The notes under the pieces: generated by a model
What the model saw: only the letters and a program-made list of their open reading frames with translations
What the model was told of the DNA's origin: nothing
Databases searched by the model: none
Shown here: positions 17,802 through 60,152 of the stretch, in pieces
Layout of the letters: each line of letters opens with the position of its first letter
How positions within the stretch are numbered: position 1 is the first letter of the stretch
Origin: Verrucomicrobiales bacterium
GTDB taxonomy: Bacteria; Verrucomicrobiota; Verrucomicrobiia; Limisphaerales; J093
NCBI GenBank assembly: GCA_015075445.1
Contig: JABTUJ010000005.1
Coordinates: 1-64,000, forward strand
DNA length: 64,000 bases
Direction of reading: 5' to 3'
Program-made: the position numbers and the translations under genes

Positions 17802-17990
17802 GCTCGGTCATTGGTTTGGCTCAATCCGGTGATGAAAGTGGCACACGCTGCGGCCGATGTCCTCTAGAAACATCCGGCGCTGGAGCCACGGGCAGTTCAC
17901 GGGGCATTCCGACCAGCCACGGTGCCACGACGGGAGTTTTGCCTTCCTTCCCCGACCTGTCCGGGGTAAAGCCTTGGCGCAGCGACCACT

Positions 17991-20672
17991 ATGCACGAGG
18001 CGGAATGGCAGACCCGCAAGCAGCGCATCGATACGCGCCTGCGCGGCCTGAATCCGCCTTGGGACATCATCCCCTACCACGCCGGACTGGACGTCGCGCG
18101 CTTGACCCGCCACGCCGTCACCGAGTTCCCCACGGCCAACGGCCCCGCCGATTACGCCCTGTTCGTCCACGGCCGGTTCCTCGGCATCCTGGAAGCCAAA
18201 AAACTCGCCGTGAACCCGCAGAACGTCCTCGAGCAGGCCAAACGCTACGCCCGCGGCGCGTTCCATGGCCCCGGCGACTGGCGCGGCTACCGGGTCCCCT
18301 TCCTCTACGCCTGCAACGGCCCGATGATCTGGTTTCTCGACGTGCGGGCCGAAAAGCCCGTTTCCCGCCAGCTCAGCGCCTTCCACACGGCCCCCGCCCT
18401 CGAAGCGCTGTTCGCGTTCGACCTGAAGCCCGCCCACGACTGGCTGCTTGACACCCCGCCCGACATCCTCCCTCTCCTCCGCGAATACCAGCGCCAGTGC
18501 CTCCTCGCCACCGAAGCCGCCATCCTGGCTGGCCGCCGGGAACTGCTCGTCGCCATGGCCACCGGCACGGGGAAGACCCTCCTGACCGTGGCCCAGATCT
18601 ACCGGCTGCTGGAAAGCAGGCTGGCCCGGCGCATCCTCTTCCTGGTGGACCGCAAGGCGCTCGCCGCCCAGGCCGTGCGGGAGTTCCATGCCTTCAGCAC
18701 CCCGCAGAACCGGAAGTTCACCCAGGAGTACGAGGTCTATTCCCAGCGGTTCCAACGCGAGGACTTCGGCCCCGACACCCCTTTCGATCCCCAGGTCCTG
18801 CCCAACGCCTACCTCACCCACCCCAGACCCAGCCAGACGTTCGTCTATGTCTCGACCATCCAGCGCATGGCCCGCAATCTGTTCGGCGCGGAGGCCTGCC
18901 TCCCGCAGGCCGCCGATGACGCCGAGACCGACCCCGACGCCGAGCGCCTCGACATCCCCATCCACGCCTTCGATCTGATCGTCGCCGACGAGTGTCACCG
19001 CGGCTACACGGCCCAGGAACTGAGCGTCTGGCGCGACACCATCCAGCACTTCGACGCCGTCCGGATCGGCCTGACCGCCACCCCGGCCGCTCATACCACG
19101 GCGCTCTTCGGCCCGCCGGTGTTCCGGTACACCGTCGAGCAGGCCATCCTCGACGGTTACCTCGTGGACTATGAGCCCGTCGCCCTCAAGTCCCACGTGC
19201 GCATGAATGGCGTCTTCCTCCGCGAAGGCGAAACCGTCGAGCGCGTGGACACCGAGTCGGGCCAGCGAACGCTCGATCAACTCGAGGACGAACGGGAGTT
19301 CGCAGCCCCCGACCTCGAACGCCGGATCACCGCGCCGGACAGCAACCGCCAGATCATCCAGGAGGTGGCCCGCTACGCCTACGAACACGAGGCGTTCACG
19401 GGCCGCTTTCCCAAGATACTGATCTTCGCCGTCAACGACCTCCCTCACACGTCGCACGCCGATCAACTGGTCCGGATCTGTCGCGAGGTGTTCGCCCAGG
19501 GCGACGAGTTCGTCCAGAAGATCACCGGCAACCCAAACGTCGACCGCCCCCTCCAGCGCATCCGCGAATTCCGCAACCGCCCCCACCCGAAGGTGGTGGT
19601 GACCGTCGACATGCTCTCGACCGGCGTGGACATCCCCGCCCTCGAATTCATCGTGTTCCTGCGCCCGGTGAAGTCGCGCATCCTCTGGGAACAGATGCTC
19701 GGGCGGGGCACCCGACGCTGCCCCGACATTCACAAGTCCAAGTTCGTGGTGTTCGACTGCTTCGACGGCACGCTCATCCGCTATTTCCAGAACGTCTCCA
19801 GCTTCGCGATCGAGCCGCCGCGGGCCACCCCGCTGCCAATCCCCCGGATCATCGAGAACATCTGGCAGAACGTGGACCGGGACTACCACGTGAAAGTCCT
19901 CACCAAGCGGCTGCTGCGTGTTGATAAGGACATGAGCCCGGAAGCGCGCACTGCCTTCGCCCGGTGGGTGCCCGACGGCGACATGGGCGCCTTCGCCCGG
20001 GACCTGGCCGGTCGGCTGAAGCGGGATTTCACCGGCACGATACAGTTGCTCCGGGATGCCCAGTTCCAACGCCTGCTGCTCGAGTATCCGCGCGCGAAAC
20101 GCCCGTTCCTGGTCGGACTCGAAGTCCAGGACCAGGTCACCTCCCGGAAGCTCGAGCGCTACGGCGCGTTCGACACCGCCGAGGGCTACCTGGATGCCTT
20201 CGCCGCGTTCGTGAAGGCCAACGCCAGCCAGGTCGACGCCCTCGCCGTCCTGCTCCGCCGCCCCCGAGACTGGCGACCCGCGGTCCTGGACGACCTGAAA
20301 CGCGCGATGGCCAAAGAGGGATTTGACCCCGCGCAGCTCCAGCGCGCGCACCGGGCACGGGGGTTCAAGTCCCTGGCGGATGTCATTTCGATGGTCAAGC
20401 ACGCCGCCGCCCACCAGGCCCCTTTGCTCACCGCGGAGGAGCGGGTCAACCGGGCCATGGACCGCTTCCTCGACGGGCGCACCCTGACCACCGAACAGCG
20501 CCAGTGGCTATCCCTGGTTCGGGAACACCTGGTCCAGAACCTGTCCATGGATGAAGAGGACTTTGACCTCACCCCGCTCCTGGGCCGGCGGGGCGGAAAG
20601 GCGAAGGCCCGGAAGGTGTTTGGGGAGTTGGAGCTACTGGTCACGCAGCTCAACGAGGCGATGGTCGTATGA
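17991..20672 (+). CDS. hsdR: Type I restriction enzyme R subunit HsdR
   Basis: An 893-residue motor-nuclease subunit. The N-terminal nuclease signature is ADYALFVHGRFLGILEAKK (D...ExK, about residues 50-70). The helicase Walker A is ATGTGKT near 190 and the DEAD-type box DECHRG near 332. LTATPAAHT and TVDMLSTGVDIP are further SF2 motifs. The C-terminal part binds the methylase core in this family. It cleaves unmethylated foreign DNA together with HsdM and HsdS. Its stop overlaps the start of the next gene by 4 bases, the beginning of a coupled five-gene cassette. Confidence 0.92.
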   Translation: MHEAEWQTRKQRIDTRLRGLNPPWDIIPYHAGLDVARLTRHAVTEFPTANGPADYALFVHGRFLGILEAKKLAVNPQNVLEQAKRYARGAFHGPGDWRGYRVPFLYACNGPMIWFLDVRAEKPVSRQLSAFHTAPALEALFAFDLKPAHDWLLDTPPDILPLLREYQRQCLLATEAAILAGRRELLVAMATGTGKTLLTVAQIYRLLESRLARRILFLVDRKALAAQAVREFHAFSTPQNRKFTQEYEVYSQRFQREDFGPDTPFDPQVLPNAYLTHPRPSQTFVYVSTIQRMARNLFGAEACLPQAADDAETDPDAERLDIPIHAFDLIVADECHRGYTAQELSVWRDTIQHFDAVRIGLTATPAAHTTALFGPPVFRYTVEQAILDGYLVDYEPVALKSHVRMNGVFLREGETVERVDTESGQRTLDQLEDEREFAAPDLERRITAPDSNRQIIQEVARYAYEHEAFTGRFPKILIFAVNDLPHTSHADQLVRICREVFAQGDEFVQKITGNPNVDRPLQRIREFRNRPHPKVVVTVDMLSTGVDIPALEFIVFLRPVKSRILWEQMLGRGTRRCPDIHKSKFVVFDCFDGTLIRYFQNVSSFAIEPPRATPLPIPRIIENIWQNVDRDYHVKVLTKRLLRVDKDMSPEARTAFARWVPDGDMGAFARDLAGRLKRDFTGTIQLLRDAQFQRLLLEYPRAKRPFLVGLEVQDQVTSRKLERYGAFDTAEGYLDAFAAFVKANASQVDALAVLLRRPRDWRPAVLDDLKRAMAKEGFDPAQLQRAHRARGFKSLADVISMVKHAAAHQAPLLTAEERVNRAMDRFLDGRTLTTEQRQWLSLVREHLVQNLSMDEEDFDLTPLLGRRGGKAKARKVFGELELLVTQLNEAMVV

Positions 20673-21589
20673 GCGTCACGCCGGTAGAATGCTCCCAGTG
20701 CGGCAAGCCTTCGCTGGTTGGGTGGGTGCGCGCACGCAGCTTGCTGTGCGAGTCCTGTGTTCGTTCATCGGCTGGCTTCGACCCGTCGTGGGTCAATTCG
20801 TACAAGATGGTCTTCGCCCCCATTAGCGATGGCATCGGCGGATGGGTTCAAGACCATGAGCTCACCTTTGGAGACGTGAGGCGTTACCTTGACGCGTGCT
20901 TAGACCATGAGGGAACAGCGGATACTCCGATGCCTGCGTCCCATAGCCTGGGTACCTTTGTGGAGCTTCTTTCGCTTTTAGAGCAGCTCAAGCAGCAAGG
21001 TCTTGCCGCGAAGGCCGACGGTTCAGACGCCCAACAGGAAACAGCCTGCATCTTGGCGGTCCGCGACCATTCCATTCGGAGGTTGCGCGCAAGGCTGCAA
21101 GACTGGAGGCCACAAGGTGGGGAGAAGCAATCCAGGAACTCGATGCCGTCAGGGGAGATTACTCTGCGCACATTCCTGATGGAGGTTCTCGCCTCGAACG
21201 TCCAGGTTGAATACCTGAAATGGATACTACTCGAACCCAAGGGCGACGCTCTCGGCATCATCCTTAAGTTCATGGAGGCTCAGGCGGCAAAGAACCGGGA
21301 GGTTCTGGAGATCACACGCCTGAGAGCCATATTCAGCCTTGTTCGACCAGTCTCACTAGGAATCGGACAGGCGGAATTCCACGGATATGTAGCCTTCATT
21401 CCGTCACAAGGGGAGAGCGTTGTGCTAGAAAGCGCCCACTACGGGAACGCCCTGTACCTGATGCCGAAAGACCTGTGGCGCGAATTGAGCCAGTTCTCCA
21501 AAAGCGAGCTGATCTATCCAGGCGTGCCGGGAGTTAAAAGGCTTGAACATCGGCGACACTGGTTTCAGCACCTCCGCGCAATGCTCTGA
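20669..21589 (+). CDS. Unknown zinc-ribbon protein inside the type I RM operon
   Basis: A 306-residue protein that I do not recognise. The N-terminus has two cysteine pairs (CSQCG at 8-12 and CESC at 27-30), consistent with a zinc ribbon. The rest has no familiar enzymatic motif; the middle (about 95-140) is predicted helical and charged, and the C-terminal 100 residues look globular (GIGQAEFHGYVAFIP). It overlaps hsdR by 4 bases and ends 29 bases before hsdM, so it is co-expressed with the RM subunits. Its DNA is visibly less GC-rich than the flanking hsd genes, a sign of separate acquisition. A role in regulating or extending restriction is inference only. Confidence 0.75.
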   Translation: MSVTPVECSQCGKPSLVGWVRARSLLCESCVRSSAGFDPSWVNSYKMVFAPISDGIGGWVQDHELTFGDVRRYLDACLDHEGTADTPMPASHSLGTFVELLSLLEQLKQQGLAAKADGSDAQQETACILAVRDHSIRRLRARLQDWRPQGGEKQSRNSMPSGEITLRTFLMEVLASNVQVEYLKWILLEPKGDALGIILKFMEAQAAKNREVLEITRLRAIFSLVRPVSLGIGQAEFHGYVAFIPSQGESVVLESAHYGNALYLMPKDLWRELSQFSKSELIYPGVPGVKRLEHRRHWFQHLRAML

Positions 21590-21618
21590 CAGGACACCCC
21601 TTTTTGCCACCGCAACCC

Positions 21619-23034
21619 ATGTCCGACATCGTCCAGAAACTCTGGGGCTTCTGCCACACGCTGCGTCACGACGGCATCGACCACGGCGACTACATCGAGC
21701 AGCTCACCTATCTGCTCTTCCTCAAGATGGCCGAGGAGCGCGGCGCCGCAGTGCCGAAAGGCTCGGACTGGACCAGCCTCAAGCACAAGTCGGGCGCCGC
21801 CCTGGCGGATCACTACGCCGAGGTGCTCCGAACCCTGGGCCGGCAGGGGGGCATCCTGGGCGAGATCTTTACCCAGGCCCAATCCCGCTTCAACAACCCG
21901 GTGAACCTGAAGCGCGTCGTCACCCTGGTGGACGAGGAGGACTGGTCCGCGATGGATGTGGACGTCAAGGCCGCCGCGTTCGAGGGGTTGCTCGAAAAGG
22001 CCGCCAGCGAGGGCAAGAAGGGCGTGGGCGGCATCTTCACGCCCCGCGTCCTCCAGCGGTCCATCGTCCGCGTCATGAAGCCGGATCCCCGGGGCAAACC
22101 GGACTGGAAGATGTGCGACCCGGCCTGCGGCACCGATGGGTTCGAGGTCTGCGCCTATGAATGGCTCGTGGCCGAGGCCAAGGGGGTGTTCGACCGCGCC
22201 GACGCCCGGCGGATCAAGACCCAGACCTACTTCGGCCAGGATATTCTGCCCCGCGCGCGGCGCCTGGCCCTGATGAACCTCTTCCTCCACGGCGTCGAGG
22301 CCCACATCCACCTGGGCGACTCGATCTATGAACCCGACCGCGGCGAGCGCTACGACGTCGTCCTCACCAACCCGCCTTTCGGCACCAAGGGCGCCAACCA
22401 GGCCCCCGAGCGGGAGGACTTCACCATCGCCACCAGCAGCAAACAGCTCAACTTCGTCCAGCACGTCCTGACCCTTCTCAAGCCCGGCGGGCGCGCGGCG
22501 ATGGTCCTGCCCGACAACTGCCTGTTCGAGGACAAGGCCGGCGAAGTCTTCGAGATCCTCATGCAGGACTGCGCCCTGCACACCGTCCTGCGCCTGCCGC
22601 GCGGAACGTTCACGCCCTACAGCCAGGGGGTGAAGGCCAACGTCATCTTCTTCCAGAAAGGCCGTCCCACTGAGGAGGTCTGGATCTTCGACGCCCGGTC
22701 CAACGTGCCGGGCATCACCAAGAAAGACCGCCCGCTGACCCCGCAGCACTTCGCCGAGTTCGAGGCTGCCTACGGCAAGGACCCGAACGGCCTGAGCAAG
22801 CGGAAGGACACCGGCGAGACGGGCCGCTTCCGGCGGTTCCGCCTCGGCGAGATCAAGGAGCGCGGCTACAAGCTGGACATCACCTGGCTCAAAGACGAGT
22901 CGCTCGAAGACAGCGATGAGCTGCCCGAGCCGCAGGACCTCGCCAGCGAAGCCATCACCGAGTTCGAAGCCATTGTGGATGACCTGCGGGATATCATCGC
23001 ACTCCTGGAAAGGGAGGAGGGGGTGGAGAAGTGA
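21619..23034 (+). CDS. hsdM: Type I restriction-modification methyltransferase HsdM
   Basis: A 471-residue N6-adenine methyltransferase. The catalytic motif NPPF is at about 251-254. The SAM-binding motif I reads DPACGTDGF (about 167-175), where most HsdM proteins have Gly, Ala or Ser in place of the Asp. The N-terminal helical domain (LTYLLFLKMAEER) is typical. With HsdS it methylates the recognition sequence on the host chromosome. Start ATG 21619 (MSDIVQKLW) matches the family; the frame is open back to 21604. Its stop overlaps the GTG start of hsdS. Confidence 0.93.
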   Translation: MSDIVQKLWGFCHTLRHDGIDHGDYIEQLTYLLFLKMAEERGAAVPKGSDWTSLKHKSGAALADHYAEVLRTLGRQGGILGEIFTQAQSRFNNPVNLKRVVTLVDEEDWSAMDVDVKAAAFEGLLEKAASEGKKGVGGIFTPRVLQRSIVRVMKPDPRGKPDWKMCDPACGTDGFEVCAYEWLVAEAKGVFDRADARRIKTQTYFGQDILPRARRLALMNLFLHGVEAHIHLGDSIYEPDRGERYDVVLTNPPFGTKGANQAPEREDFTIATSSKQLNFVQHVLTLLKPGGRAAMVLPDNCLFEDKAGEVFEILMQDCALHTVLRLPRGTFTPYSQGVKANVIFFQKGRPTEEVWIFDARSNVPGITKKDRPLTPQHFAEFEAAYGKDPNGLSKRKDTGETGRFRRFRLGEIKERGYKLDITWLKDESLEDSDELPEPQDLASEAITEFEAIVDDLRDIIALLEREEGVEK

Positions 23035-24404
23035 CGGGGGGACTGCCGGCGGGGTGGGCTGAGACTACCCTTGAGCGAGCCGGAACGTGGCGCAGTGGTG
23101 GGACCCCTTCGCGCCGCCGGCCCGACTTCTTCGGGAAGGGCATCCCTTGGGTGAAGAGCGGGGATTTGCCGGATGGGCCGATCCTGAGAACCGCAGAGGA
23201 GCTCACCAAAGAGGGCCTTGCGAATTCCACGTCGAAACTACTGCCGCCAGGAACAATCTCCATGGCTCTTTACGGGGCAACGATCGGAAAGCTCGGGACA
23301 ATGACCTTCCCGGCGGCGACTAACCAGGCATGCGCCAATGTCATTCCGGACGGACAGCTAATCGAAGCCAGCTACCTTTTCTATTATCTGCTTGCTGAGC
23401 GCCAGAGATTCATCGAGCAAGGACAGGGCGGAGCACAGCCCAACATTAGCCAGGAAATCGTTCGGAATCATCCGCTCCGCCTCCCCCCTCTCCCCGAACA
23501 ACGCCGGATCGTCGCGAAGCTGGAGAAGCTCCTGGGCAAGGTGGACGCCTGCAAGGAGCGTCTGGCCAAGATCCCCGTCCTCCTCAAACGCTTCCGCCAG
23601 GCCGTCCTCGCCGCCGCCTGCTCGGGAAAGCTGACGGCGGATTGGAGGGGGGAGGCACCACCGAATAGCCTGCTTCCGCTCGAGCCTCCAAATCCCGGTG
23701 ACATGATCAACGTTGAGGAGATCGTGGACGCGCCCGGCTCATGGCGTTGGATTCCCCTCCAAGCAGTGTGCGACCCCGGCCGTTCGATCTGCTACGGTGT
23801 CATCAAGCTGGGTGCAGAAACCCCAAACGGGATCCCATGTCTTCGGACCAGCAACGTAAAACCACTCGCCATCGACACCACGAACGTGAAGCGCATTGCA
23901 GTAGCCATATCGGATGAGTATCGGCGCACCTTGCTCCGTGGTGGAGAATTGCTTGTCAATGTCCGGGGAACGCTCGGCGGTGTGGCGGTTGTGCCGCCTG
24001 ACATGCACGGCTGGAATGTCTCCCGTGAGGTCGCCGTCGTGCCGGTTCAGGGCGTCCTCCCGAGATTCATAGCCCTCTGGATCGCGTCAGTGCCTTGTCA
24101 AGACTGGCTTACCGGGGCCGCCAAAGGCGTAGCTTACACTGGCATCAACATAGCCGATCTGAAGTTGCTTCCGGTCGTAATACCGTCGCTCGCCGAACAA
24201 TCGGAAATCGTCCGCCGCGTGGACGCCCTCTTCGCCGTGGCGGACCAGATCCAAACCCGCTTCGAGCGGGCGCGGGAGCAGGTGGAGAAGCTGACCCCCG
24301 CCCTGCTGGGCCGCGCCTTCCGCGGTGAACTCGTTCCGCAGGATCCGAATGATGAACCGGCGTCTGCTCTTCTGGCGCGGATACGGGCGAAACGAAACCT
24401 ATGA
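23031..24404 (+). CDS. hsdS: Type I restriction-modification specificity subunit HsdS
   Basis: A 457-residue protein with the classic two-TRD layout. TRD1 is about residues 1-150 and opens with LPAGWAETTLERAGTWRSGGTPSRR. A conserved helical spacer (LPPLPEQRRIVAKLEKLL) runs at about 150-205, TRD2 at about 215-385, and a second spacer (SLAEQSEIVRRVDALF) at about 390-445. The two TRDs each recognise half of a bipartite target. The TRD-coding DNA is less GC-rich than the spacers, as expected for segments exchanged by recombination. The start is GTG at 23031, overlapping the hsdM stop. Confidence 0.93.
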   Translation: MTGGLPAGWAETTLERAGTWRSGGTPSRRRPDFFGKGIPWVKSGDLPDGPILRTAEELTKEGLANSTSKLLPPGTISMALYGATIGKLGTMTFPAATNQACANVIPDGQLIEASYLFYYLLAERQRFIEQGQGGAQPNISQEIVRNHPLRLPPLPEQRRIVAKLEKLLGKVDACKERLAKIPVLLKRFRQAVLAAACSGKLTADWRGEAPPNSLLPLEPPNPGDMINVEEIVDAPGSWRWIPLQAVCDPGRSICYGVIKLGAETPNGIPCLRTSNVKPLAIDTTNVKRIAVAISDEYRRTLLRGGELLVNVRGTLGGVAVVPPDMHGWNVSREVAVVPVQGVLPRFIALWIASVPCQDWLTGAAKGVAYTGINIADLKLLPVVIPSLAEQSEIVRRVDALFAVADQIQTRFERAREQVEKLTPALLGRAFRGELVPQDPNDEPASALLARIRAKRNL

Positions 24405-24826
24405 AACCGATCCGCAAGCGCATTACCCCGCTGGTCCGCTGGAATCCGTCACTGGAGAACCTCCGTGCCCTGTCCATCCGGCAGCCGTGGGCCTGGCTGA
24501 TCGTCAACGGTTACAAGGACGTCGAGAATCGGAGTTGGCCGACGCGGCACCGCGGACCGCTGCTCATCCATGCCGGGGCGAGCCAGGTCCGCCTGCGCGA
24601 GGATGCGACATGGGTGGAGGAGCGCTTCGACATCCGTCTGCCCGTGGAGTATGACTTCGGCGGCATCGTCGGAATCGTGGATCTGCTGGACTGTCGCGAG
24701 CGAGTTGACTCCCCCTGGTATGTTCCGGAGTCGTTTGCCTGGCGGTTGGGCAAGCCGCGTCGCCTGCCGTTTCGCCCGGTCAAAGGGGCGTTGAGCCTGT
24801 TCGGGCCTTGCTTCCGCGGCCGCTGA
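24401..24826 (+). CDS. ASCH-domain protein at the end of the RM operon
   Basis: A 141-residue protein with the ASCH/PUA-like signature ALSIRQPWAWLIVNGYKDVE and then RGPLLIHAG, normally associated with RNA or modified-nucleotide binding. It overlaps hsdS by 4 bases (ATGA), so it is translated with the RM genes. Because some PUA/ASCH-like folds recognise modified bases, a role in nucleic-acid recognition alongside restriction is possible but is only inference. It could also be a passenger gene. Confidence 0.8.
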   Translation: MKPIRKRITPLVRWNPSLENLRALSIRQPWAWLIVNGYKDVENRSWPTRHRGPLLIHAGASQVRLREDATWVEERFDIRLPVEYDFGGIVGIVDLLDCRERVDSPWYVPESFAWRLGKPRRLPFRPVKGALSLFGPCFRGR

Positions 24827-24947
24827 ACTCGCGGCTGTGCGGAGGAACCCCTACGATCGCGCCGGATCAGATGATACCGACCCGACCCGACCCAGCTATC
24901 GCCGGGGAGAACCGGAGCGCTCCGCAGTTCTCGCCATGCGTCAGAGG

Positions 24948-25265
24948 TCAGATAAGGCCCAGCCAACGCTTCACACCGTCCTCGACCTGCGCCATCTGTT
25001 CCGGACCCAAGACGCTGAGTCGACGGAGCAACACTTGCGGCGGAACGCTGCGAAGACCTTGCGCGTCAAAGGCGCCGGGCTGCAGTCCCGCCACAGCCAA
25101 GGGAATCTCAAAGCGAGTGCCGCGCAGTGCGGTCGTGTGCGGCACGATTTCGTACACGGCCCGTTCGTTCTCCAAGAACGGAACGTTCAGTATCACCCCC
25201 GGGCGCACCTTGGCCGCCAAGCCCAAATCCACTTGCCAGACTTCACCGCGGCGACCGATTGGCAT
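24948..25265 (-). CDS. MazF/PemK-like toxin
   Basis: A 105-residue protein with the MazF/PemK fold pattern: the opening RRGEVWQVDLG, then KVRPGVILNVPF, and the threonine-containing segment VPHTTALRGTRFEI. Such toxins cleave mRNA and arrest growth. It lies directly downstream of a small antitoxin-like gene and overlaps it by 23 bases. It is transcribed against the RM cassette, a common place for toxin-antitoxin modules. Confidence 0.82.
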   Translation of the reverse strand: MPIGRRGEVWQVDLGLAAKVRPGVILNVPFLENERAVYEIVPHTTALRGTRFEIPLAVAGLQPGAFDAQGLRSVPPQVLLRRLSVLGPEQMAQVEDGVKRWLGLI

Positions 25266-25473
25266 GTTGCTGCTCCTCCTCCCGGTCGTACGCCAGGAAG
25301 CTCTCCTCCGCCGAGGCGATTAGGTCTGCCTCGGTGACCACCCCGTAGGCGTCGTCGCAAATGAGCCCGTCCCTGCGCTGGCGATAGATGGCGTGCATGG
25401 ATTGCTCGATCTGCTGCAGTTCCCGGGTGCTCAACTGCGGCAACGCGGCTTGGATCTCAGCGACCGTGCTCAT
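25243..25473 (-). CDS. Putative antitoxin of the MazF-like toxin
   Basis: A 76-residue acidic, mostly helical protein (LSTRELQQIEQSM, then ADLIASAEESFLAYDREEE). I see no recognisable DNA-binding domain, unlike AbrB- or RHH-type antitoxins. The position immediately upstream of, and overlapping, the toxin gene is the main reason for the call. The C-terminal DREEEQQ segment could wrap the toxin, as antitoxin tails do. Confidence 0.65.
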   Translation of the reverse strand: MSTVAEIQAALPQLSTRELQQIEQSMHAIYRQRRDGLICDDAYGVVTEADLIASAEESFLAYDREEEQQHANRSPR

Positions 25474-25513
25474 GGCGAGACACTACCCGTGCGGTGCCGG
25501 TTGGCAAGGGCAG

Positions 25514-28166: not shown

Positions 28167-29482
28167 AGACCACCTCCCGCCGCCAGTTCCTCCACCGCCT
28201 CGGCCTCTCCACTGCCGCCCTCCCCTGGCTCTCCGGCCTGCCCGGCCTACGCGCCGCGCTCGGCGAACCGTCACGCCCCAAACAACGCCTCGTCTTCCTC
28301 TTCACGCCCAACGGCACGGTCCCGCCCGACTTCTGGCCGGACGAAGCTGGGCCCGCGTTCAACCTCAAACGCATCCTCGCGCCGCTGCAGCCATTCCAGG
28401 ACCGCCTGCTGATTCTCAAGGGCATTGCCAACAAGATCCGCGGGGATGGCGACGGCCACATGCGCGGCATGAGCTGCCTGCTCACCGCCATCGAACTCCT
28501 TCCCGGCAACATCCAGGGCGGCTCCGACACCCCGGCCGGTTGGGCCAGCGGCATCTCGATCGACCAGGAGCTCAAGAACTTCTTTCAGAGCCGCCCAGAA
28601 ACCCGCACCCGGTTCGGCTCCCTCGAACTCGGCATCGACGTCCCCAACCGCGCCGATCCCTGGACCCGCTGGACGTACGCCGGCTCCAACCAGCCCGTGG
28701 CCCCCCTGAGCGATCCCTATCAGGTCTTCGAGAAGCTCTACGGTCAGATGACCGATCGCGAAAGCCTGGTCAGTGTCCTCGATGTGGTGACCCAGGACCT
28801 GCGCCAGCTCGCCCGCCAACTCGAGGCGACGGACCGTGCCCTCCTCGATCAGCACGCCACCTTCGTGCGCGAGATGGAACAGGAGCTCCAGGCCGCCGAC
28901 CGGGAACCCCTCGCCCACCCCGTCCCCGTCCTCGAACCCGGCGTGCGCTCGCAAAACGACGAGATTCCGCGCCTCTTCGAGCTCCAGACCGATCTGCTCG
29001 TCAACGCCTTTGCGAACGATCTCGCGCGCGTGGCCACCGTCCAGTTCACCAACTCGGTCGGCCAAGCTCGCTGCCGTTGGCTCGGTATCGAGGAAGGCCA
29101 CCACTCCCTGTCCCACGATCCCGACCTCAACGCCGAGTCACAGGAGAAGCTCGTCAAGATCAACACCTGGCTGTGCGAGCAACTCGCCGCCCTCGCCCGC
29201 AAGCTGGACGCCCTCCCCGAGCCCGGTGGCGACGGCACCCTGCTCGACCACACCACGCTGGTCTGGACCAACGAGCTCGGCAAGGGGAACTCCCACACCC
29301 TGGACAACATCCCCTTCGTGCTCGTCGGGGGCGGCCTCGGCTTCAAGCTCGGCCAGTCGCTGCGCTTCCAGCGTGTCGCCCACAACCGCCTCTGGCTCGC
29401 CCTCGCCCACGCCGTCGGCCATCCCCTCGAGACGTTCGGCAACCAAGCGCACTCGGACGGGGGACCGCTGAGTCTCGCTTAG
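28163..29482 (+). CDS. Tat-exported DUF1552 protein
   Basis: A 439-residue protein with a twin-arginine signal (SRRQFLHRLGLSTAALPWL), so it is exported folded, probably with a cofactor. The body matches the DUF1552 family (LVFLFTPNGTVPPDFWP near 45, GDGDGHMRGMSCLLT near 95). It starts within the last codons of the DUF1592 gene (ATGA overlap); the two form a fixed pair in this phylum. The biochemical function is not established. Confidence 0.88.
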   Translation: MKTTSRRQFLHRLGLSTAALPWLSGLPGLRAALGEPSRPKQRLVFLFTPNGTVPPDFWPDEAGPAFNLKRILAPLQPFQDRLLILKGIANKIRGDGDGHMRGMSCLLTAIELLPGNIQGGSDTPAGWASGISIDQELKNFFQSRPETRTRFGSLELGIDVPNRADPWTRWTYAGSNQPVAPLSDPYQVFEKLYGQMTDRESLVSVLDVVTQDLRQLARQLEATDRALLDQHATFVREMEQELQAADREPLAHPVPVLEPGVRSQNDEIPRLFELQTDLLVNAFANDLARVATVQFTNSVGQARCRWLGIEEGHHSLSHDPDLNAESQEKLVKINTWLCEQLAALARKLDALPEPGGDGTLLDHTTLVWTNELGKGNSHTLDNIPFVLVGGGLGFKLGQSLRFQRVAHNRLWLALAHAVGHPLETFGNQAHSDGGPLSLA

Positions 29483-29492
29483 CCCCAGCGGC

Positions 29493-30080
29493 TCAGGCTC
29501 CGGCTCCGGTGGAGGCGGCTCGCCGGAGTTGGGCCAGCAAGCTGCCTATGTCTTCGGGGCACAGTGTTTTGATGCGGGACCAGTGTCTCAGGGCCTCGGC
29601 CATGAGTGACGCACGCCCCTCGAAAGGCAACTTCGAACATCCTGTTTCCGCTACCAGGCGCCGGAAATGGGTGTTCTTCACATCCGCGTCACGGCGCATC
29701 GCCTGCCAATCCCAATTCCGTGCGTGGGGATGACCCGCCAGGACGAAAATCTCGAGCTCCTCGATCGCCGCCGCTCCCAGGACCCGCTGGGAGGGGGTCG
29801 TCAAACGCTCCGCCAGATCCACAAGGCTCCGTTCCCGCCCGCCCACGCCGTCGCGGTCAAGGAGAAGCACGATCACATCGAACATCGGGTAGAGCGGGAG
29901 AACCGCACGGCGCAAGTACGCCTCATCGAATCCCCGGCGGACCCCACCCAGTTTGGGGCGGCGGCAAACCTCCACCAGGGCCCGGGGACGGCATTCCGCC
30001 GCCATCCGCTCGACAACCGGTCGGGCAATGAACTGATCGCGCCGGAAGTCCTCCGTCACGACGAGGATCCGGAAACTCAT
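29493..30080 (-). CDS. TOPRIM-like DUF4276-type partner of the ATPase
   Basis: A 195-residue protein. It has a TOPRIM-style pattern: a first-strand glutamate (VVTEDF, E10), an acidic DxD after a hydrophobic strand (VLLLDRDG, D75 and D77), and further acids in IEELEIF (107-110). This resembles DUF4276/OLD-type metal-dependent nuclease folds. It starts at 30080 (MSFRILVV) and overlaps the ATPase stop by 4 bases; the open frame extends upstream into the ATPase. Together they resemble ATPase plus TOPRIM defence pairs such as PARIS or Gabija in organisation, but no known system is confirmed. Confidence 0.7.
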   Translation of the reverse strand: MSFRILVVTEDFRRDQFIARPVVERMAAECRPRALVEVCRRPKLGGVRRGFDEAYLRRAVLPLYPMFDVIVLLLDRDGVGGRERSLVDLAERLTTPSQRVLGAAAIEELEIFVLAGHPHARNWDWQAMRRDADVKNTHFRRLVAETGCSKLPFEGRASLMAEALRHWSRIKTLCPEDIGSLLAQLRRAASTGAGA

Positions 30081-31399
30081 GGCGACTCCTCGCTGGCCAG
30101 AATCGCCGCTACGTTCTCGAACCATCCCGAACTGTGAAGCTGGCCGGCACTCGCGTGCTTCCGCACCTCCTCCAGCCATTGGAGCTCAGCCAGACGCTGC
30201 GCCCTCGAATGGTTGCCCACACGATAGATGAGGACCGCATGGGCCAGATCCTCGTCGGTGAGGAAGTCCAGCAGCGCGGGCGAGTGGGTCGTGGCGATGA
30301 CCTGCAGACCTTCCGCCCGCGTGCGCAAACGCAAGAGCTCCAACAGGAGGTAGGCTCGGTTGGGATGTACGCCGTTCTCCAGCTCCTCGATGAAATAGCA
30401 GCGGGCAGGACCGGTCCCCAACACGGCGGCTGCGTAGCCCAAGAAGCGCAACGTCCCGTCGCTCGCGCTTTCGGCTGAGAGAGCACGTCCGCCGTGCTCC
30501 AGAAGACGCAACTGTATCCGCCCGACCTGATCGACCTCCGGAAAGTCCAGATCGGTGACGTCCAGGGGAGCCAACTCGCTTAGCCACTCAAGCAATGCCG
30601 CCTTTGACATCGGGTCGCTGCAGATCGCCTCCAACACCGACGACAGGTTCTCTCCTCGTTCCCCCAGACTCCGTTGTCCGCGGAAGGAAGGCTTCCTTAG
30701 AGTGGTGGGCTCGAGGTTCAAGAAGAGTAGGTGCGCCAGCGATTCCAGGAACGCGCGGCATTCGGATGTGACGGCCGCCGGACATCCCGGGTGTTCGGCC
30801 AACTGCGTGACGGCGGGTTGGTCGCTCCGGATCCGTTCCGATGGACCCAGCCGCCCCTTGGAGGGTCGTTTGCGATAGCGCACGCGGATCTGCTCGGAGC
30901 CAGTCCGTTCCTCTGTATGAAAGGTTGGGTACTTCTCGCTCGAAAGCGAAAGGGACTCGTAAGCCAACTGCGGTATCCTGGTTCGTTCCCCCACTTCAAC
31001 CTCGATGCGATAGGTCGCCACCGCCGCCTGCCCACCCGCCACCACGCGGGTTTCGACTGCCAAGGCGAAACGGTTGCCGGGCGGGCTTGAATCGCGGGCC
31101 ACGGCTTCGAGCACGCCGCCGCGAATACCCTCCCACTGAGGCTCGCCGCTGGGACCCGCACGCTCCCCCAGGATCTCCACCAGGCTATACCCTCGCGCTA
31201 CCCCATGCAGGAAACGGAGAGCATCGCGTAGATTGCTCTTGCCGCTGGCGTTGGTGCCAATGATGAGCGTAAGCCCACCAAATTGGACCGTGACGCCCTC
31301 TGGCTCCGTGAGAGGCGTGACGATTCTGTTCGGCGGCTTGGCCCGCGGGGCAAGTGCCACGAAACTCTTGAAATTCGTCAACGTCAGCTTCTGGATCAT
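30077..31399 (-). CDS. AAA_21/RecF-like ATPase of a two-gene module
   Basis: A 440-residue ABC/SMC-type ATPase. Walker A is GTNASGKSN (48-56), preceded by LTNFKSF as in RecF and OLD proteins. A signature-like SASDGTLRFLGYAA lies before Walker B (CYFIEELENGVHP), and the switch histidine is in ATTHSPALLDF. There is no long coiled coil, so it is a small AAA_21-type protein. The TOPRIM-like gene follows with a 4-base overlap. Such pairs usually detect phage or foreign DNA through the ATPase and act through the partner; that role is inferred here. Confidence 0.82.
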   Translation of the reverse strand: MIQKLTLTNFKSFVALAPRAKPPNRIVTPLTEPEGVTVQFGGLTLIIGTNASGKSNLRDALRFLHGVARGYSLVEILGERAGPSGEPQWEGIRGGVLEAVARDSSPPGNRFALAVETRVVAGGQAAVATYRIEVEVGERTRIPQLAYESLSLSSEKYPTFHTEERTGSEQIRVRYRKRPSKGRLGPSERIRSDQPAVTQLAEHPGCPAAVTSECRAFLESLAHLLFLNLEPTTLRKPSFRGQRSLGERGENLSSVLEAICSDPMSKAALLEWLSELAPLDVTDLDFPEVDQVGRIQLRLLEHGGRALSAESASDGTLRFLGYAAAVLGTGPARCYFIEELENGVHPNRAYLLLELLRLRTRAEGLQVIATTHSPALLDFLTDEDLAHAVLIYRVGNHSRAQRLAELQWLEEVRKHASAGQLHSSGWFENVAAILASEESP

Positions 31400-31521
31400 C
31401 GATGACCCTGTTCCCTTCTGAGCACTGCGTCAGTGTACCCCGGTCCCCCGCTCGTCGTCTACGACCGCAAGCGACAGTTCCCCCGCCCCGCAGCCGACCA
31501 CCACCCCTCCCGCCCTGTCCC

Positions 31522-44713: not shown

Positions 44714-45691
<978 letters not shown>

Positions 45692-45726
45692 CGAGACGCC
45701 CCTCAGGCCCTCCCGCCGCCGTTCCC

Positions 45727-47061
45727 ATGTCCCGCTCCGCTTCGCGTGCCAACCCCGACGCTGCGGCCGACACCGCCTCGGCCGGGCACCGCCGCCTTCG
45801 CCGCCCCCTCCTGCTGGCCCTCGCGCTCCTGGCCACGCTCCTCGCCCTCTGGTTCCGCGAACCGCTGCAGTACCGCCTCGTCGCCACCGCCGTCCTCCGC
45901 AACCCCGCTCCGACTCCCGATCAGGTTGAGACCCTGATCGACCAAGCCCCCAACCCTCGCACCGCCCTGCTCGCCGCCTGGAACTCCGACAGGATCGTGC
46001 ATCGCCAGGTGGCCGTCCGTCACCTGCCCCGCGTGTTGCCTCACGAACAACCGCTCCCGCCGGAGCTCGAAACCCTCCTGCTCGGCGCCGCCCTGGACCC
46101 GGACCTGAACGTTCGCCAGACCGCCCTCAGCCTCCTCCAGCAGCGCCGCCACCCGGCCCACCCGGCCCTCGCCGCAGCCCAATTGCGCGACCCCGATCCC
46201 GAGTTGCGCGTCCTCGGCGCTTCGCACTTCCGGTTCGGCACCTCCGTCGGCGTCCCGACCGTCCTGCCGATACTCTTGGATCCCGATCCGCTGGTCGTCA
46301 CGGCCGGCCTCAAACTCCTCGAACATTGGAGCGGCCAGGATTTCGGCGTGAAGCTGCGCGAAGCCGCCGCCCTCAACCACCCGCAGACGGGCGCGATCGA
46401 GACCCGCGCCGGCGGCGAGGCGAAGGCGAGTGCCGGCGCCGAACGCGCCCGGGCCTGGTGGAACCAGCGACAGAACGAGTTCCCCCCGGTCGCCCTCGAA
46501 CTGCCCGCCGCGGCTTTGGCCTCCCGCCGCCCCCTGCCCGCGGGGGACTTCCAGCTTCGCACTCTCGAGGGGCGCAAGGTCCGGCTGGCGGACTACCGCG
46601 GCCGTGTGGTGTTGCTCCATTTCTGGACCACCTGGTGCCCGGCCTGCCTGACCGGGATGCCCACCCTTGTCGCCCTCCAGAACTCCCGCACGAACTCCCT
46701 GACCATTCTGGGCGTGTCGCTCGATCTCGTCCCGGACAGCCACGGACACATCGGCGGACACCCGGTGGCCGGAGAGAGGGAGGCGATCGAGGAGGAACAC
46801 GGGCATCGCGAAAGCCGGGCCGCGGCACGGCAACGCGCACGGGAGAAGGTGGTCCGCGTCGCGGCGTCGCAGAGACTCAACTACCCCGTGTTGCTGGATG
46901 AACGGAATGAGGTCGGCGGGCGTTTCAACGGCGGTGAGCTTCCCACCACCGTCATCCTAGACGCCCAGGGTTACGTCCGACGCCGCTTCCTTGGCACCCG
47001 CTCCCTCCCGGTCCTCGAGGCACTCGTAACCGAAGCGGCGCTCCCGCTGCCCTCACCCTGA
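45727..47061 (+). CDS. Membrane-anchored HEAT-repeat and thioredoxin-like fusion
   Basis: A 444-residue protein. One transmembrane segment (LLLALALLATLLALWF) at about 34-50 anchors it. Residues 60-220 form HEAT-like helices (QTALSLLQQRRHPAHPALA). From about 270 a TlpA/redoxin domain follows, with WTTWCPACLTGMP near 304 giving the redox pair CPAC. It is likely a periplasmic thiol-disulfide protein; the HEAT part may bind a partner. The order TM-HEAT-thioredoxin is not a combination I recognise from standard TlpA proteins. Confidence 0.82.
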   Translation: MSRSASRANPDAAADTASAGHRRLRRPLLLALALLATLLALWFREPLQYRLVATAVLRNPAPTPDQVETLIDQAPNPRTALLAAWNSDRIVHRQVAVRHLPRVLPHEQPLPPELETLLLGAALDPDLNVRQTALSLLQQRRHPAHPALAAAQLRDPDPELRVLGASHFRFGTSVGVPTVLPILLDPDPLVVTAGLKLLEHWSGQDFGVKLREAAALNHPQTGAIETRAGGEAKASAGAERARAWWNQRQNEFPPVALELPAAALASRRPLPAGDFQLRTLEGRKVRLADYRGRVVLLHFWTTWCPACLTGMPTLVALQNSRTNSLTILGVSLDLVPDSHGHIGGHPVAGEREAIEEEHGHRESRAAARQRAREKVVRVAASQRLNYPVLLDERNEVGGRFNGGELPTTVILDAQGYVRRRFLGTRSLPVLEALVTEAALPLPSP

Positions 47062-47073
47062 AAAGGTGCCGTC

Positions 47074-47136
47074 CTGTAGGCCGCGTGCCCTCACGCGGCG
47101 GGGGGTGCTGTAGGCCGCGTGCCCTCACGCGGCGGG
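47074..47136. repeat. Tandem pair of identical 29-base hairpins
   Basis: The same 29-mer, starting CTGTAGGCCGCGTGCCCTCA, occurs at 47074-47102 and 47108-47136. Each copy contains the stem GCCGCGTG/CACGCGGC (8 base pairs) with a CCCT loop. The pair lies between the convergent HEAT-thioredoxin and carB genes and may act as a bidirectional terminator, though no T-run follows. Confidence 0.8.
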
Positions 47137-47175
47137 CTGGACCTCTCCTCACCGGAGACTGAGGACCCGATTCGT

Positions 47176-48771
47176 TCACGCCGCCGGCCGAGGGCAGCCG
47201 GCCTCGGGGCTCGCACCGGATCTCCCAACCGTGGCCGCCAACTCCTCCTCGACCTCCACGATTTCACGGATCTGCGCCAGGAACCAGCGGTCAATCTTGG
47301 TAAGCTGGAATACGTCCTCGATGGTGAAGCCCGCCCGAAACGCATGGCGCAGGAAGAAGATCCGCTCGGCGTTCGGCACCGTCAGTTTCCGGCTGATCAG
47401 GTCCCGCGGCAGCAGGGCCCGGTCTTCGTACACCTCGTTCCCCAATCGCCAAGGCTTGCCGTCGCCCCCCAACCCGTGGCGGCCGATTTCGAGCGAGCGA
47501 AGGCACTTCTGCAGACTTTCCTTGAAGGTCCGCCCGATGGCCATCGCTTCGCCCACGCTCTTCATCTGGGTGGTGAGGGTGGGGTCGGCCTGGGAGAACT
47601 TCTCGAAGGCAAATCGCGGCACCTTGACGACGACGTAGTCGATGGTGGGCTCGAAACTGGCCGGCGTCTCGCGCGTGATGTCGTTGCGGATCTCGTCCAG
47701 CCGATACCCCACCGCGAGCTTGGCAGCGATCTTCGCGATGGGAAAACCCGTGGCCTTCGAGGCCAGCGCCGAACTGCGCGACACGCGCGGGTTCATCTCG
47801 ATAATCACCAGTCGGCCGGTGTCGGGGTGCACGCCGAACTGGATGTTCGAACCGCCGGTCTCAACCCCCACGGCCCGGATCACCGCGAAGCTCTGGTCGC
47901 GCATGATCTGGTATTCCTTGTCCGTCAACGTCTGGATGGGCGCCACGGTGATCGAATCCCCCGTATGGACGCCCATCGGGTCCAGGTTCTCGATCGAGCA
48001 GATGATCACGCAGTTGTCCGCCTGGTCGCGCATCACCTCCATCTCGAACTCCTTCCAGCCCAGCAGCGATTCCTCGATGAGGATCTCGCGCACCGGCGAA
48101 AGGTCCAACCCCCGCTTGGCCAGCTCCTCGAACTCCTCGCGGTTGTACGCGATCCCGCCCCCCGTCCCGCCCAGGGTGAAGGCGGGCCGGATGATCAGCG
48201 GCAGGCGACCAATCCGCTCCGCAATCGACCGCGCCTCCTCCAGGGAGTGCGCCACCCCGCTGACCGGCACGTCCAGCCCGATGGACAGCATCAGCTCCTT
48301 GAACACCAGCCGGTCTTCCCCCTTCTCAATCGCGGCGGCGTTGGCCCCGATCATCTCCACTCCGTACCTGGCCAGCACGCCGCCGCGATCCAACGCCATG
48401 GCCGTGTTCAACGCCGTCTGTCCACCCAGCGTGGGGAGCAGCACCAGTTTGTGCGGCACGTCGGATGCCGGCGCATCCCCGGACGTCGGCTCGGGCAGTG
48501 GGACGCCCAGACGTCGGAGTTCCTCGCATTCCCGCGCGATGATCTTCTCCACGCACTCCGGCGTGATGGGTTCGAGATAGGTGCGATCGGCGAACTCCGG
48601 GTCCGTCATGATGGTGGCGGGGTTCGAGTTCACCAGCACCACCCGGTAGCCCTCCTCCCGCAGCGCCTTGCAGGCCTGCGTGCCGGAGTAGTCGAATTCG
48701 CAGGCCTGACCGATGATGATCGGCCCGGCTCCGATGATCAGCACCGTGTGGATGTCCGTGCGTTTAGGCAT
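47176..48771 (-). CDS. carB: Carbamoyl-phosphate synthase large subunit, N-terminal half (split CarB)
   Basis: A 531-residue protein, half the usual CarB length. It contains the first ATP-grasp (carboxyphosphate) domain: [19 protein letters not shown] at the start, [18 protein letters not shown] near 180, and [19 protein letters not shown] near 220. It ends at the oligomerisation region ([16 protein letters not shown]) and does not include the second ATP-grasp or the allosteric domain. No C-terminal half is encoded on either side. Split CarB proteins are known in some archaea and Aquifex. It makes carbamoyl phosphate for arginine and pyrimidine synthesis together with the missing half and CarA. 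Confidence 0.88.
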
Positions 48772-50216: not shown

Positions 50217-53200
50217 TTACCGCCGGATACGTCCGAACAGCATCGCTTCGCTCGGGGCGAAGGTGTACGGGCTGGTGGCACCCGTCACGTCCTGCCAAGG
50301 CCCCACGACCGTCGGAGCGGCCTGCAGCGTACCCCGGCCCGTCCATTCCACCGTGAGGGTCCCGTCGGGATTGCGGCGAATGGCCGTGAACTCCGGCTGT
50401 CCGGCCTCGGAGACCTCGAGGTTGAAGGTCTGCACGGCGGTGCTGACACCGTCGCTGACCATGACCGTGATCACGCTCGTGCCGATCTCCTCATCGATGA
50501 GGCTGACCGTTGCGCTCACGGCCGTGGAACTGACCGTGAAGTTGACACCCGAAACCAGGTTCGAGTTCGACCATTCGGCGCGGTAGGTGAGCTCGGTCAG
50601 CGCGTTGTCAACATCGCTGACGTTGAGCGGAACCACGACTGGCGTGCCCGCGGAGCCCGTCTGATCCGGGATCGCTGCCAGCACCGGCGGGTAGTTGACG
50701 AATGTCACGGTCAAGTCGAAGGCCGCGAAGCCCTTGCTCAACGTGTCGTCCGCTTCAAGGATGACGCGGGTCTGGCCGACGGCGTTCAGAACCGGCGTGA
50801 TGGTGACCGTATACGAACCACTGGCACCCGCGATCACCACGCTCTGAACCAGAGCGGTGCTCTCGGCATAACCGCTGACCGTCACGTTCGGCGTCCGGGT
50901 GTTGGTGACCGTGAAGGGCACCACAAGCGCAACGTTCTTCGGGGTCGATTGTGCCGCGATAGTGGAGATGATCGGGTACGAGGCCGGCTCGACGGTGACG
51001 ACGAACGGCACTCGGGTCGAGGACGCCTCGTCCATCGCGGTCACCGCGATCTCCGCCGCACCCAACGGTCCGGACGGCGTAAACGTCAACCGCCAGTTGC
51101 CCGCGCCCGCGGGCTGGAGCGTGACTCGGCCGCGCGAGGGATCGGTCACCGCAGCACTCACCACGAGCGCCGTGGCAGGCGAATCAACGTCTGCGACGCT
51201 GAACATCATCGCCAGCGGAATGTTGACAGGTGTGGAGGTGTTCGCGAGGCCCGTCACCATTGGCGGCTGATTGACGTAGCGGACCGTCAGCGGGAAGGCC
51301 ACGGTGTTTGTGGCCGCCGGGGTCTCCAGCGTGACCGTGATGACCGCCGTTCCGTCGTTCTTGCTCACCACCGAGGGGTAGTTCGGTCGCGGCGTGATCA
51401 CCAGGGTCCGGCCGGTGCCGTTTCCGGTGATCTCGAGGGACTGGATCAGTCCTGGCGGATTCACTTGGCTGCTCTCCACCTTCACCACGACGTCCTCCGG
51501 GTCAACACCCGGGGCGAACACGTTCACGGGCACCGCCAGCGTCACGTTTTCATCCGTGACCTGAGGCTCGATCGGAGCGATCACCGGCACATCGGTGAGG
51601 ATGCGCAGCAACCAACCGCCCGCGATGACACCCGCTTCCGATTGCTGATCGTCCTGCACGTAGAGCGACCAGTCGCCGTTCGGGTTTGTTCCGTTGAAGA
51701 CGGACAACGTCTTGCCGTACGGTCCCGCAGGAGCGGGGGCAAAGAACGTCTCGGTCGTGCGATAGCTGGTCGGCTTGTAGGTGCCGGCCGCGATCAGGGT
51801 GTTGTCCGGCAGACTCGCCGACGCGTCATCCGCGAAGTTGAGCCGCAAGTTGCTGACAGGCGCCCCGCCGCCTGCGCGGCTCATGATCACTACGCTCTGG
51901 CCTTCCGGACCGACCAGCAAGATGCTGACGTCGTCAGGGAAGCGATGGGCGAACTTCGACAGGGACACCGACACGCCAACCACCTGGCCCTCCACGCCTG
52001 CGATGTTGATCACGGACGGATACGGCGTTGCGGCCGCGTTGTCGTTGATGGTGATGCCTTCGACGTTGGCTCCCAAGGCGGAGACGGCGGGTGCCGCAAC
52101 CCTCAGGACGAAGCTCTCGGTCGAAACCAGCCCGCCGCCCGCCGGCGGCGCCGGCTCAGCGACGCTGATCGTGATCTCCGTCTCACCCGTGGCAGCCCCC
52201 ACCGGCTCGACAAACAACTGTCCGCCGGCCAACTCGATGTTGCTCAGCGGCACCAGACTTGTGTTGGATGAGGTGTAACTGAGGATGAGGTTGTTCTTCG
52301 GCGTCTCCAGATCGCTGTAGTCGAAGTTGACGCTGGCCACGGTGCCGGCCGCGATGGTTTGGTCCGCGATCGGCGTGATGACCGGCGGGTAGTTCACCAC
52401 CGTGAACACCACCCGGAACTTGCTTGTCGCCGTGCGGCCGTCGGCGTTGGTCGCGTTCACCGTGACCTCGGTCTGGCCCGCCACATTGAGCGAGGGCTTG
52501 GCGCTGACGGCGAAGTTGGTCCCACTGCCGATGAAGGTGATGTTCGTGTTCGCCACCAAGGCCGTGTTGGTAGAGGTGGCAGTGAACGTGAAGCCCGGAT
52601 CACCGATCGAGTCATCGGCGATGGTGAAGTTCTGCTGCGCCGGGGTGTTCATCTCCTGCGTCAGATTCTGCAGGCCCATGATCACTGGATCCGTCGTGAT
52701 CGCCAGCGACCAACCACCGGTGATGACACCGGCATCCGACGGTGTGTCGTCCACGACGTACAGCGACCAGGTCCCATTGGGCGAATGCCCGTTGAAGGTC
52801 GCCAGGTTCGTGCTGTAAGGCGAAGCCGGTGCCGGCGCCGGCAGGTTGTAGCCGGAAGGAATCTTGTAGTCCGCCGGACGGTAGGTGCCGGTCACCAGCG
52901 CGGTCCCCTGCGGCACGGCGTTGGCGGCCGCCGCATCGAACGTCAGGGTGACATTCGTTACCGCCGTCCCGCCACCGGTGCGATTCATCAACATGACCTT
53001 CTGACCCGTGGGGCTGACCAGCAGCGCACCAGCATCCTGCGGGAATCGGTGGGCAAATCCGTTGAGGGTCACCACCACGCGCGAGACGTGGCCGTTGAAC
53101 CCGTTGACCTGGATGGCTGACGGATAGGGTGTCGCAGCCGCATTGTCGTTGATGACGATGGGCGTGCTGTTGGCAAACACCCGCTCCGGGCTGGGCCGAA

Positions 53201-59564: not shown

Positions 59565-60152
59565 GGCTTCCCTCAATTGGTGATGTGGTTGCATTCCAGA
59601 CAAATTGTGGCGCCAACAAACCAAGTTGGCTAACTCTTGGCAAGAAGAATCTTAAGCCGACTACGGCAACCCACTAGGCCCCACAAATCCGCACCACGAA
59701 CCCCCGCCCCCCGCCCCCCGCCGTGGACGATGCACCGCCCCGCCCTCCGGTCGTGATCCTCCCGTCCGGCGCCCGCTCTGGATCCCGCCTCCCACCTCCA
59801 TGCGGTCCTGAACCGTGGCCTGTATCACAGCGACATACTATTGGGAATGAATCGCTTACGACAGCAGTCGTCCCGGCATGAACGCGCTCCCGCACCTCCT
59901 CTCGCAACCCCCGGGTTCCCCGACCCGATTTCGCCGCCACCCCGTGCGGTTCCTTGCCCCCACACACCCCACGAGACACCCCGGTCGTCGCACCTATCGA
60001 CCGCGGAAGATGTTCCGACACCCACGACCTCCCAAACTGCTCTCCCTCACCCGGTGGATGACCTCGCTGGCGCCATGCGCTAATCTCCGTGCAGGTGGCG
60101 CCCCGGACCTCGCTCAAGCCGGCCGTGCTTCTGGGCGCACCCTCGTTGTCAC
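59565..60152. other. Divergent intergenic region upstream of the giant gene
   Basis: These 588 bases contain the 5' region of the giant gene. A small inverted repeat GCCAAC/GTTGGC (59612-59617 and 59625-59630) is in a less GC-rich stretch near 59580-59670 that probably carries its promoter. Next comes a C-rich run (about 59700-59720). Small open frames on both strands (for example 59674-60243 minus) lack family features and overlap the start of the U32 gene, so they are not called. Confidence 0.5.

Follow-up and report, generated by a model that had tools for sequence, protein, structure and literature searches.

A pair of overlapping genes on the minus strand of the window (the whole stretch of DNA analysed here, 64,000 nucleotides) encodes an OLD-type ABC ATPase and a small, putatively TOPRIM-like protein (Table 1). 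With a probability of roughly 0.7, the pair is a two-gene, probably mobile, PARIS-like sensor/nuclease module directed against phages or mobile elements. A defence role is supported by guilt by association: the Hma loci in which some relatives are found, the patchy distribution of the pair and the replacement of its allele in a sister genome. The small protein represents a widespread and apparently uncatalogued partner family (131 relatives in the scan of the genome collection; at least 14 phyla) that would be added to the OLD-ABC/TOPRIM kind of defence; current PADLOC models would miss this effector family or barely touch it.

Table 1. Positions of the module, its motifs and the nearby restriction-modification cassette in the window, and of partnered ATPase loci in the same genome.
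Feature	Position	Strand	Remarks
Module interval, end of one flanking gene to end of the other	29472-31519		Not alignable as a whole to sister genome G329; flanks about 90% identical
RecF/OLD-like ABC ATPase (AAA_21), putative sensor	30077-31399	minus	440 aa; PF13304 7.5e-30
ATPase Walker A, residues 48-55	31235-31258	minus	
ATPase C-terminal tail, residues 421-430, LHxSGWxEDA type	30110-30139	minus	Candidate partner-docking segment
Stop/start overlap (ATGA), 4 bases	30077-30080	minus	TGA 30077-30079, ATG 30078-30080
TOPRIM-like small protein, putative nuclease effector, distant DUF4276 relative	29493-30080	minus	195 aa
Small protein E10	30051-30053	minus	E in 77/78
Small protein D15	30036-30038	minus	78/78
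Small protein D75-R76-D77	29850-29858	minus	78, 76 and 77 of 78
Small protein E108-x-E110	29751-29759	minus	Each 78/78
HsdR	17991-20672		Type I RM cassette
HsdM	21604-23034		Type I RM cassette
HsdS	23031-24404		Type I RM cassette
ASCH-domain protein	24401-24826		
ORF without Pfam match	24808-25323 or 24837-25337		
Partnered OLD-ABC loci in the window's own genome	C46 (window), C5:76143-76817, C2:77774-78304, C16:120844-121230, C36:20678-21142		

The preliminary description of this DNA had reported two genes overlapping by 4 bases, an ATPase with the motifs GTNASGKSN, IEELENG and ATTHS and a 195-residue protein, and all of these are present. The best PADLOC profile for the ATPase is PDC-M07A (5.6e-62), followed by HEC-01A (7.8e-39), AriA (1.6e-29) and AbiLi (1e-21). 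In its AF2 model (pLDDT 89.9) the ATPase takes the ABC-head fold shared by SMC, Rad50, the retron/Septu PtuA and Ts OLD. When ATPases with different partners are compared, the sequence of the C-terminal tail varies with the partner type, which makes the tail a candidate docking segment.

On its own, the window's small protein has no match in Pfam (even at E 10), NCBIfam or PADLOC, and single-sequence searches with it are nearly blind, yielding no related locus in the genome contig collection and no meaningful PDB sequence match. A profile built from three small proteins then gave 131 relatives (one genome per species), of which 80 were kept, together with one viral contig. The pairing goes beyond chance: the ATPase gene lies directly upstream of the small-protein gene on the same strand in 83 of the 83 loci examined, and the acidic residues of the small protein are nearly invariant. 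The overlap is exactly 4 bases in 55 of the 83 loci, a count that is favoured by choosing the start nearest to the end of the ATPase gene; translational coupling is probable. Pairwise distances of ATPases and small proteins correlate with r 0.81 over 73 pairs (the best of 2000 label permutations reached 0.13), and the two proteins are co-inherited.

The distribution of the pair is broad and patchy. Among 71 labelled rows, at least 14 phyla carry it, and the ATPase tree has 23 phylum-label changes against a minimum of 13. The pair is present in 5 of 14 genomes of the taxonomic family and, in the wider sample of the phylum, in 2 of 288. Mobile-element records contributed one locus from a viral collection and one plasmid record, from Brasilonema; no phage record contained the small protein. 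On one short contig (L169, G328:C272) the small protein has no recognisable family ATPase upstream; further upstream lies a reading frame that is transposase-like, as judged by reading alone.

The acidic residues singled out in the preliminary description (E10, D75-R76-D77 and E107-E108-x-E110) are where it placed them, and an alignment of 78 members provides the conservation counts of Table 1. The patterns used in the search spanned E10-D15 and E108-E110; neither D75 nor D77 was a selection criterion. Near-invariance of the acids is not only an effect of these patterns, because rows found by one pattern alone keep the residues of the other (E108 and E110 in 12 of 12; D15 in 24 of 24 and E10 in 23 of 24). 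The order E10, D15, D75, D77, E108, E110 is also the order of the two-metal ligands of OLD TOPRIM domains that are given in PMC7049728: E377, D381, D431, D433, S478 and E480 of Ts OLD, and E400, E404, D455, D457, T506 and E508 of Bp OLD. The first spacing, E-x4-D as against E-x3-D/E in those OLD proteins, is one residue longer. The pattern of an OLD-type active site, with a glutamate after β1, DxD after β3 and further acids after β1 and β4, is found in the small protein: its AF2 model (pLDDT 90.5, pTM 0.88) has a β-α-β-α-β-α-β core that places E10 after β1, DxD after β3 and ExE after β4.

Structure prediction assigns the small protein a TOPRIM-like topology, to which structure searches lend no more than suggestive support. 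OLD TOPRIM chains score VIA Z 6.0-6.8 over alignments of 153-158 residues, which are among the longest in the list (6nk8: Z 6.8, 157 residues, 17% identity); higher scores go to lumazine synthases (up to 7.7) and to a designed protein (8.0), over 132-135 residues. The top fold match in BFVD is a RloB-like protein (probability 1.00, TM 0.54/0.50, E 8.6e-3), and Foldseek against the PDB gave no match at E<=0.001. That the protein has some other Rossmann-like fold, of the lumazine-synthase, PIWI/MID or flavodoxin type, and is no nuclease is improbable. The appearance of lumazine synthases and MID domains at Z 7-8 in the same search and the empty Foldseek result speak for it; against it stand six near-invariant acids at the ends of β1, β3 and β4 in the ligand order of the OLD proteins, the RloB-like first match in BFVD and a profile similarity to DUF4276. 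The earlier proposal of an ATPase with a TOPRIM-like partner is supported by acid pattern, predicted topology and profile similarity, and the fold itself is no more than suggested.

Between the small protein and DUF4276 there is a distant relationship, seen as a weak profile similarity. An hhalign comparison with DUF4276 proteins of the same phylum gave a probability of 35.5 and a score of 32.9, which none of 60 column-permuted controls equalled (maximum 24.3); a second DUF4276 subgroup gave 11.0 and 26.9 (control maximum 24.1), and RloB 8.5 and 25.6 (control maximum 19.4). The negative comparison, with the ATPase alignment, scored 19.5, a value reached by 8 of 60 controls. Weak matches to DUF4276 occur in 19 of the 78 members and to HEC-01B in 18. 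The gathering score of DUF4276 (PF14103), 30.2 bits, is reached neither by the window protein, which has no match, nor by the relative L133, at 24.4 bits. The label "DUF4276-type" in the preliminary description is loose, given that the window protein itself lacks a Pfam match. RloB (PF13707) matches none of the 78 members, and neither does PDC-M07B.

In a partner-labelled tree of 48 ATPases, in which the window family is represented by 20 rows chosen from 77, each partner type occupies one side of a branch: the TOPRIM-like family with its 20 rows (100/99), RloB with 11, DUF4276 with 9 and 6, and PIN-like partners with 2. The tree needs four changes among these five partner types, which is the minimum. 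The nearest sampled relatives of the window-family ATPases, sister to them at 100/96, are PIN-paired (PADLOC PDC-M07) and number only those two rows. ATPases paired with RloB are a clade apart (100/100), one long RloB branch, L126, being of unsure placement, and the DUF4276-paired ATPases fall into another clade than the window family. The window's own genome (G000) contains OLD-ABC ATPases with all five partner types: the window family, two subgroups of DUF4276, RloB and PIN-like. Its only PDC-M07B match lies on contig C36, with an ATPase of its own, and none is found on C46.

ATPase clades that follow the partner, together with partner-specific tails, suggest that the nuclease has been exchanged on a common sensor and that the pairing of the window is a lineage of its own. 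A further-reaching proposal, tentative and rather doubtful, is that OLD-ABC ATPases have swapped RloB, DUF4276, TOPRIM-like and PIN partners, with the tail serving as a partner-specific docking code, and that in the window lineage the ATPase licenses the nuclease and does not merely cage it; orphan nucleases would therefore be tolerated. The tree fits this proposal, with the PIN-paired ATPases sister to the TOPRIM-like-paired clade.

The pair is neither PARIS, Gabija, HEC-01 nor PDC-M07, because its ATPases group in a single supported clade, to which PIN-paired ATPases are the closest of the relatives sampled. AriB, the partner in PARIS, belongs to DUF4435, a family that is absent from the 12 Pfam families matched by the 78 members and to which hhalign gave a probability of 0.3 (one DUF4435 protein). 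PARIS is likewise made of two genes, for an OLD-type ABC ATPase that the window ATPase resembles (the AriA match above) and a TOPRIM-like protein; the window-family partner differs in lacking a DUF4435 match, and the window ATPase is closer to PDC-M07A. With PDC-M07 the ATPase type is shared, but PDC-M07B, which is PIN-like by reading of two sequences alone, is a different partner. HEC-01 and DUF4276 pairs also join an AAA_21 ATPase to a small protein with E, D and ExE motifs, and the Hma-embedded setting recurs; the window protein itself matches neither HEC-01B nor DUF4276. RloA/RloB resembles the pair in its downstream TOPRIM-like protein and differs in partner family and ATPase clade. OLD nucleases and Gabija share the ABC ATPase and TOPRIM chemistry, the acid order agreeing with Ts and Bp OLD, whereas the window ATPase and putative nuclease are encoded by separate genes that no UvrD-like helicase gene adjoins. 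Membership in PARIS, Gabija, PDC-M07, HEC-01 or RloB was rejected on one or another of these grounds: partner family, gene layout or ATPase clade. From the earlier comparison with PARIS and Gabija there survives an OLD-type ABC ATPase in a gene of its own, without an AriB-family partner and without the single chain and helicase of Gabija.

PMC12839542 describes OLD-ABC ATPases with TOPRIM, HNH, PD-(D/E)XK or PIN partners in BREX and DUF499-centred loci, and its TOPRIM-linked OLD-ABC dyads of BREX/BR systems are of the same general kind as the window pair; its main text does not name DUF4276. A search of literature text, with preprints and most subscription papers outside its scope, returned nothing on DUF4276, on HEC-01 with PADLOC or on PDC-M07.

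The defence context of the pair is real but partial. A homologue of the DUF499 ATPase (HmaC) lies within the examined flanks of at least 9 of 83 loci, and in 6 of 83 the pair sits between the DUF1156 methylase (HmaB) and HmaC; the control regions gave 0 of 16. In two of these six, L068 and L077, more than 2 kb separate HmaB from the module, and in the latter an FRG-domain protein with TPR repeats (4562-6208) is encoded between the two. PMC12111858 and PMC12988326 treat genes found between Hma genes (HECs) as candidates for defence, and for several of them action against phages is confirmed there. The window locus is not itself between Hma genes; it is flanked by a DUF1552 gene and a DUF2961 gene. 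In most loci the pair has no known defence gene as a neighbour, and some neighbours are housekeeping or ordinary metabolic genes. In a PADLOC tally, the 125 nearest neighbours were not clearly richer than 125 control genes, a set into which CRISPR genes had come by chance; defence families occur in both. Among the matches listed for seven single-contig genomes, no N6_Mtase lay within 20 kb of the pair. The defence module of the preliminary description is accordingly favoured by the Hma loci, patchiness and allele replacement, and not by clear PADLOC enrichment over controls.

The sister genome G329, a genus mate, is collinear with the window over 1-48.4 kb, with a nucleotide identity of about 84-92%, save for three intervals: 17885-25507, which is all but absent, the module interval, and 45690-47228. 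Its counterpart of the module interval is a divergent allele of 1158 bp (L163, 15579-16736). The small protein there has 191 residues, an open frame and intact motifs, and is 44.7% identical to that of the window; of the ATPase, only residues 1-57 and 345-440 are left, in different frames, with the middle missing. The proteins that flank the module are 83-93% identical between the two genomes. A small protein of this low identity and pieces of an ATPase, set amid conserved flanks, argue that the whole unit has been replaced or has diverged very fast. The state of the G329 genes is unsure, since both flanking genes show split frames in its assembly. Another genome, G340, has a DUF1552 orthologue with no visible module beside it; it was dropped as a family-level empty site and says nothing on insertion.

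A type I RM cassette does lie in the neighbourhood, as had been noted. Window 17885-25507, which holds this cassette and the ASCH-domain gene, has the appearance of a clean insertion, with almost nothing at that place in G329. The proximity of the cassette says little about the pair: the cassette is a separate insertion of 7.6 kb without counterpart in the sister genome, and on this ground it was ruled out as belonging to the module. The toxin-antitoxin pair that was also claimed was not confirmed beside the cassette, where the ASCH-domain protein and an ORF without Pfam match lie.

In the mechanism that we propose, for which we infer nuclease activity, a physical complex, a trigger, a target and defence itself, the OLD-type ABC ATPase would be sensor and scaffold, and the small protein a two-metal nuclease that stays inactive, or is not assembled, as long as the ATPase senses no sign of infection. 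The released nuclease would cut nucleic acid, perhaps tRNA or another host RNA as AriB does, otherwise DNA, and the cutting would stop growth or the invader. PARIS is the precedent: according to PMC12409363, an AriA hexamer holds AriB until a trigger frees it, and AriB cuts tRNA. The same parts might obey another logic, in which the ATPase activates the nuclease within an obligate complex, in the manner of Gabija and OLD, in place of PARIS-like sequestering and release; this is a real alternative, though less likely than not. The broken-ATPase allele of G329 hints that the nuclease may need the ATPase instead of being caged by it: the nuclease frame is open and its motifs are kept, a state that could last if the nuclease did no harm in the absence of the ATPase. 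The split frames beside it weaken the argument, the orphan nuclease may simply be silent, and the ATPase is retained in all 83 sampled loci.

That the pair is a toxin-antitoxin or element-maintenance module, with the nuclease as toxin, the ATPase as neutraliser and no specific role against phages, is unlikely. Overlapping genes, patchy spread, a plasmid copy and a solitary position in most loci are what such a module might present, but the pair is embedded between Hma genes in several phyla, PADLOC ranks the ATPase's nearest profile among defence candidates, and tested relatives of the OLD-type sensor (PARIS, Gabija, HEC-04) are reported to act on phages. A housekeeping or repair pair, a RecF/Rad50-like ATPase with an accessory metal enzyme, is very improbable: the fold is that of SMC and Rad50 heads and some neighbours are metabolic, yet the pair is rare in the phylum sample, its phylogeny conflicts with taxonomy and its allele has been replaced wholesale at a collinear locus.

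Comparison of partner types offers a testable picture of one sensor scaffold changing its nuclease, and G329, with its broken ATPase and open nuclease frame, is a natural case for testing whether ATPases of this type hold back their effectors or license them. Elsewhere in the window, the interval 45690-47228 contains an AhpC-TSA/HEAT-repeat gene (45727-47061) that is missing at that place in G329, and an open frame of 3135 residues occupies 50217-59624 on the minus strand.
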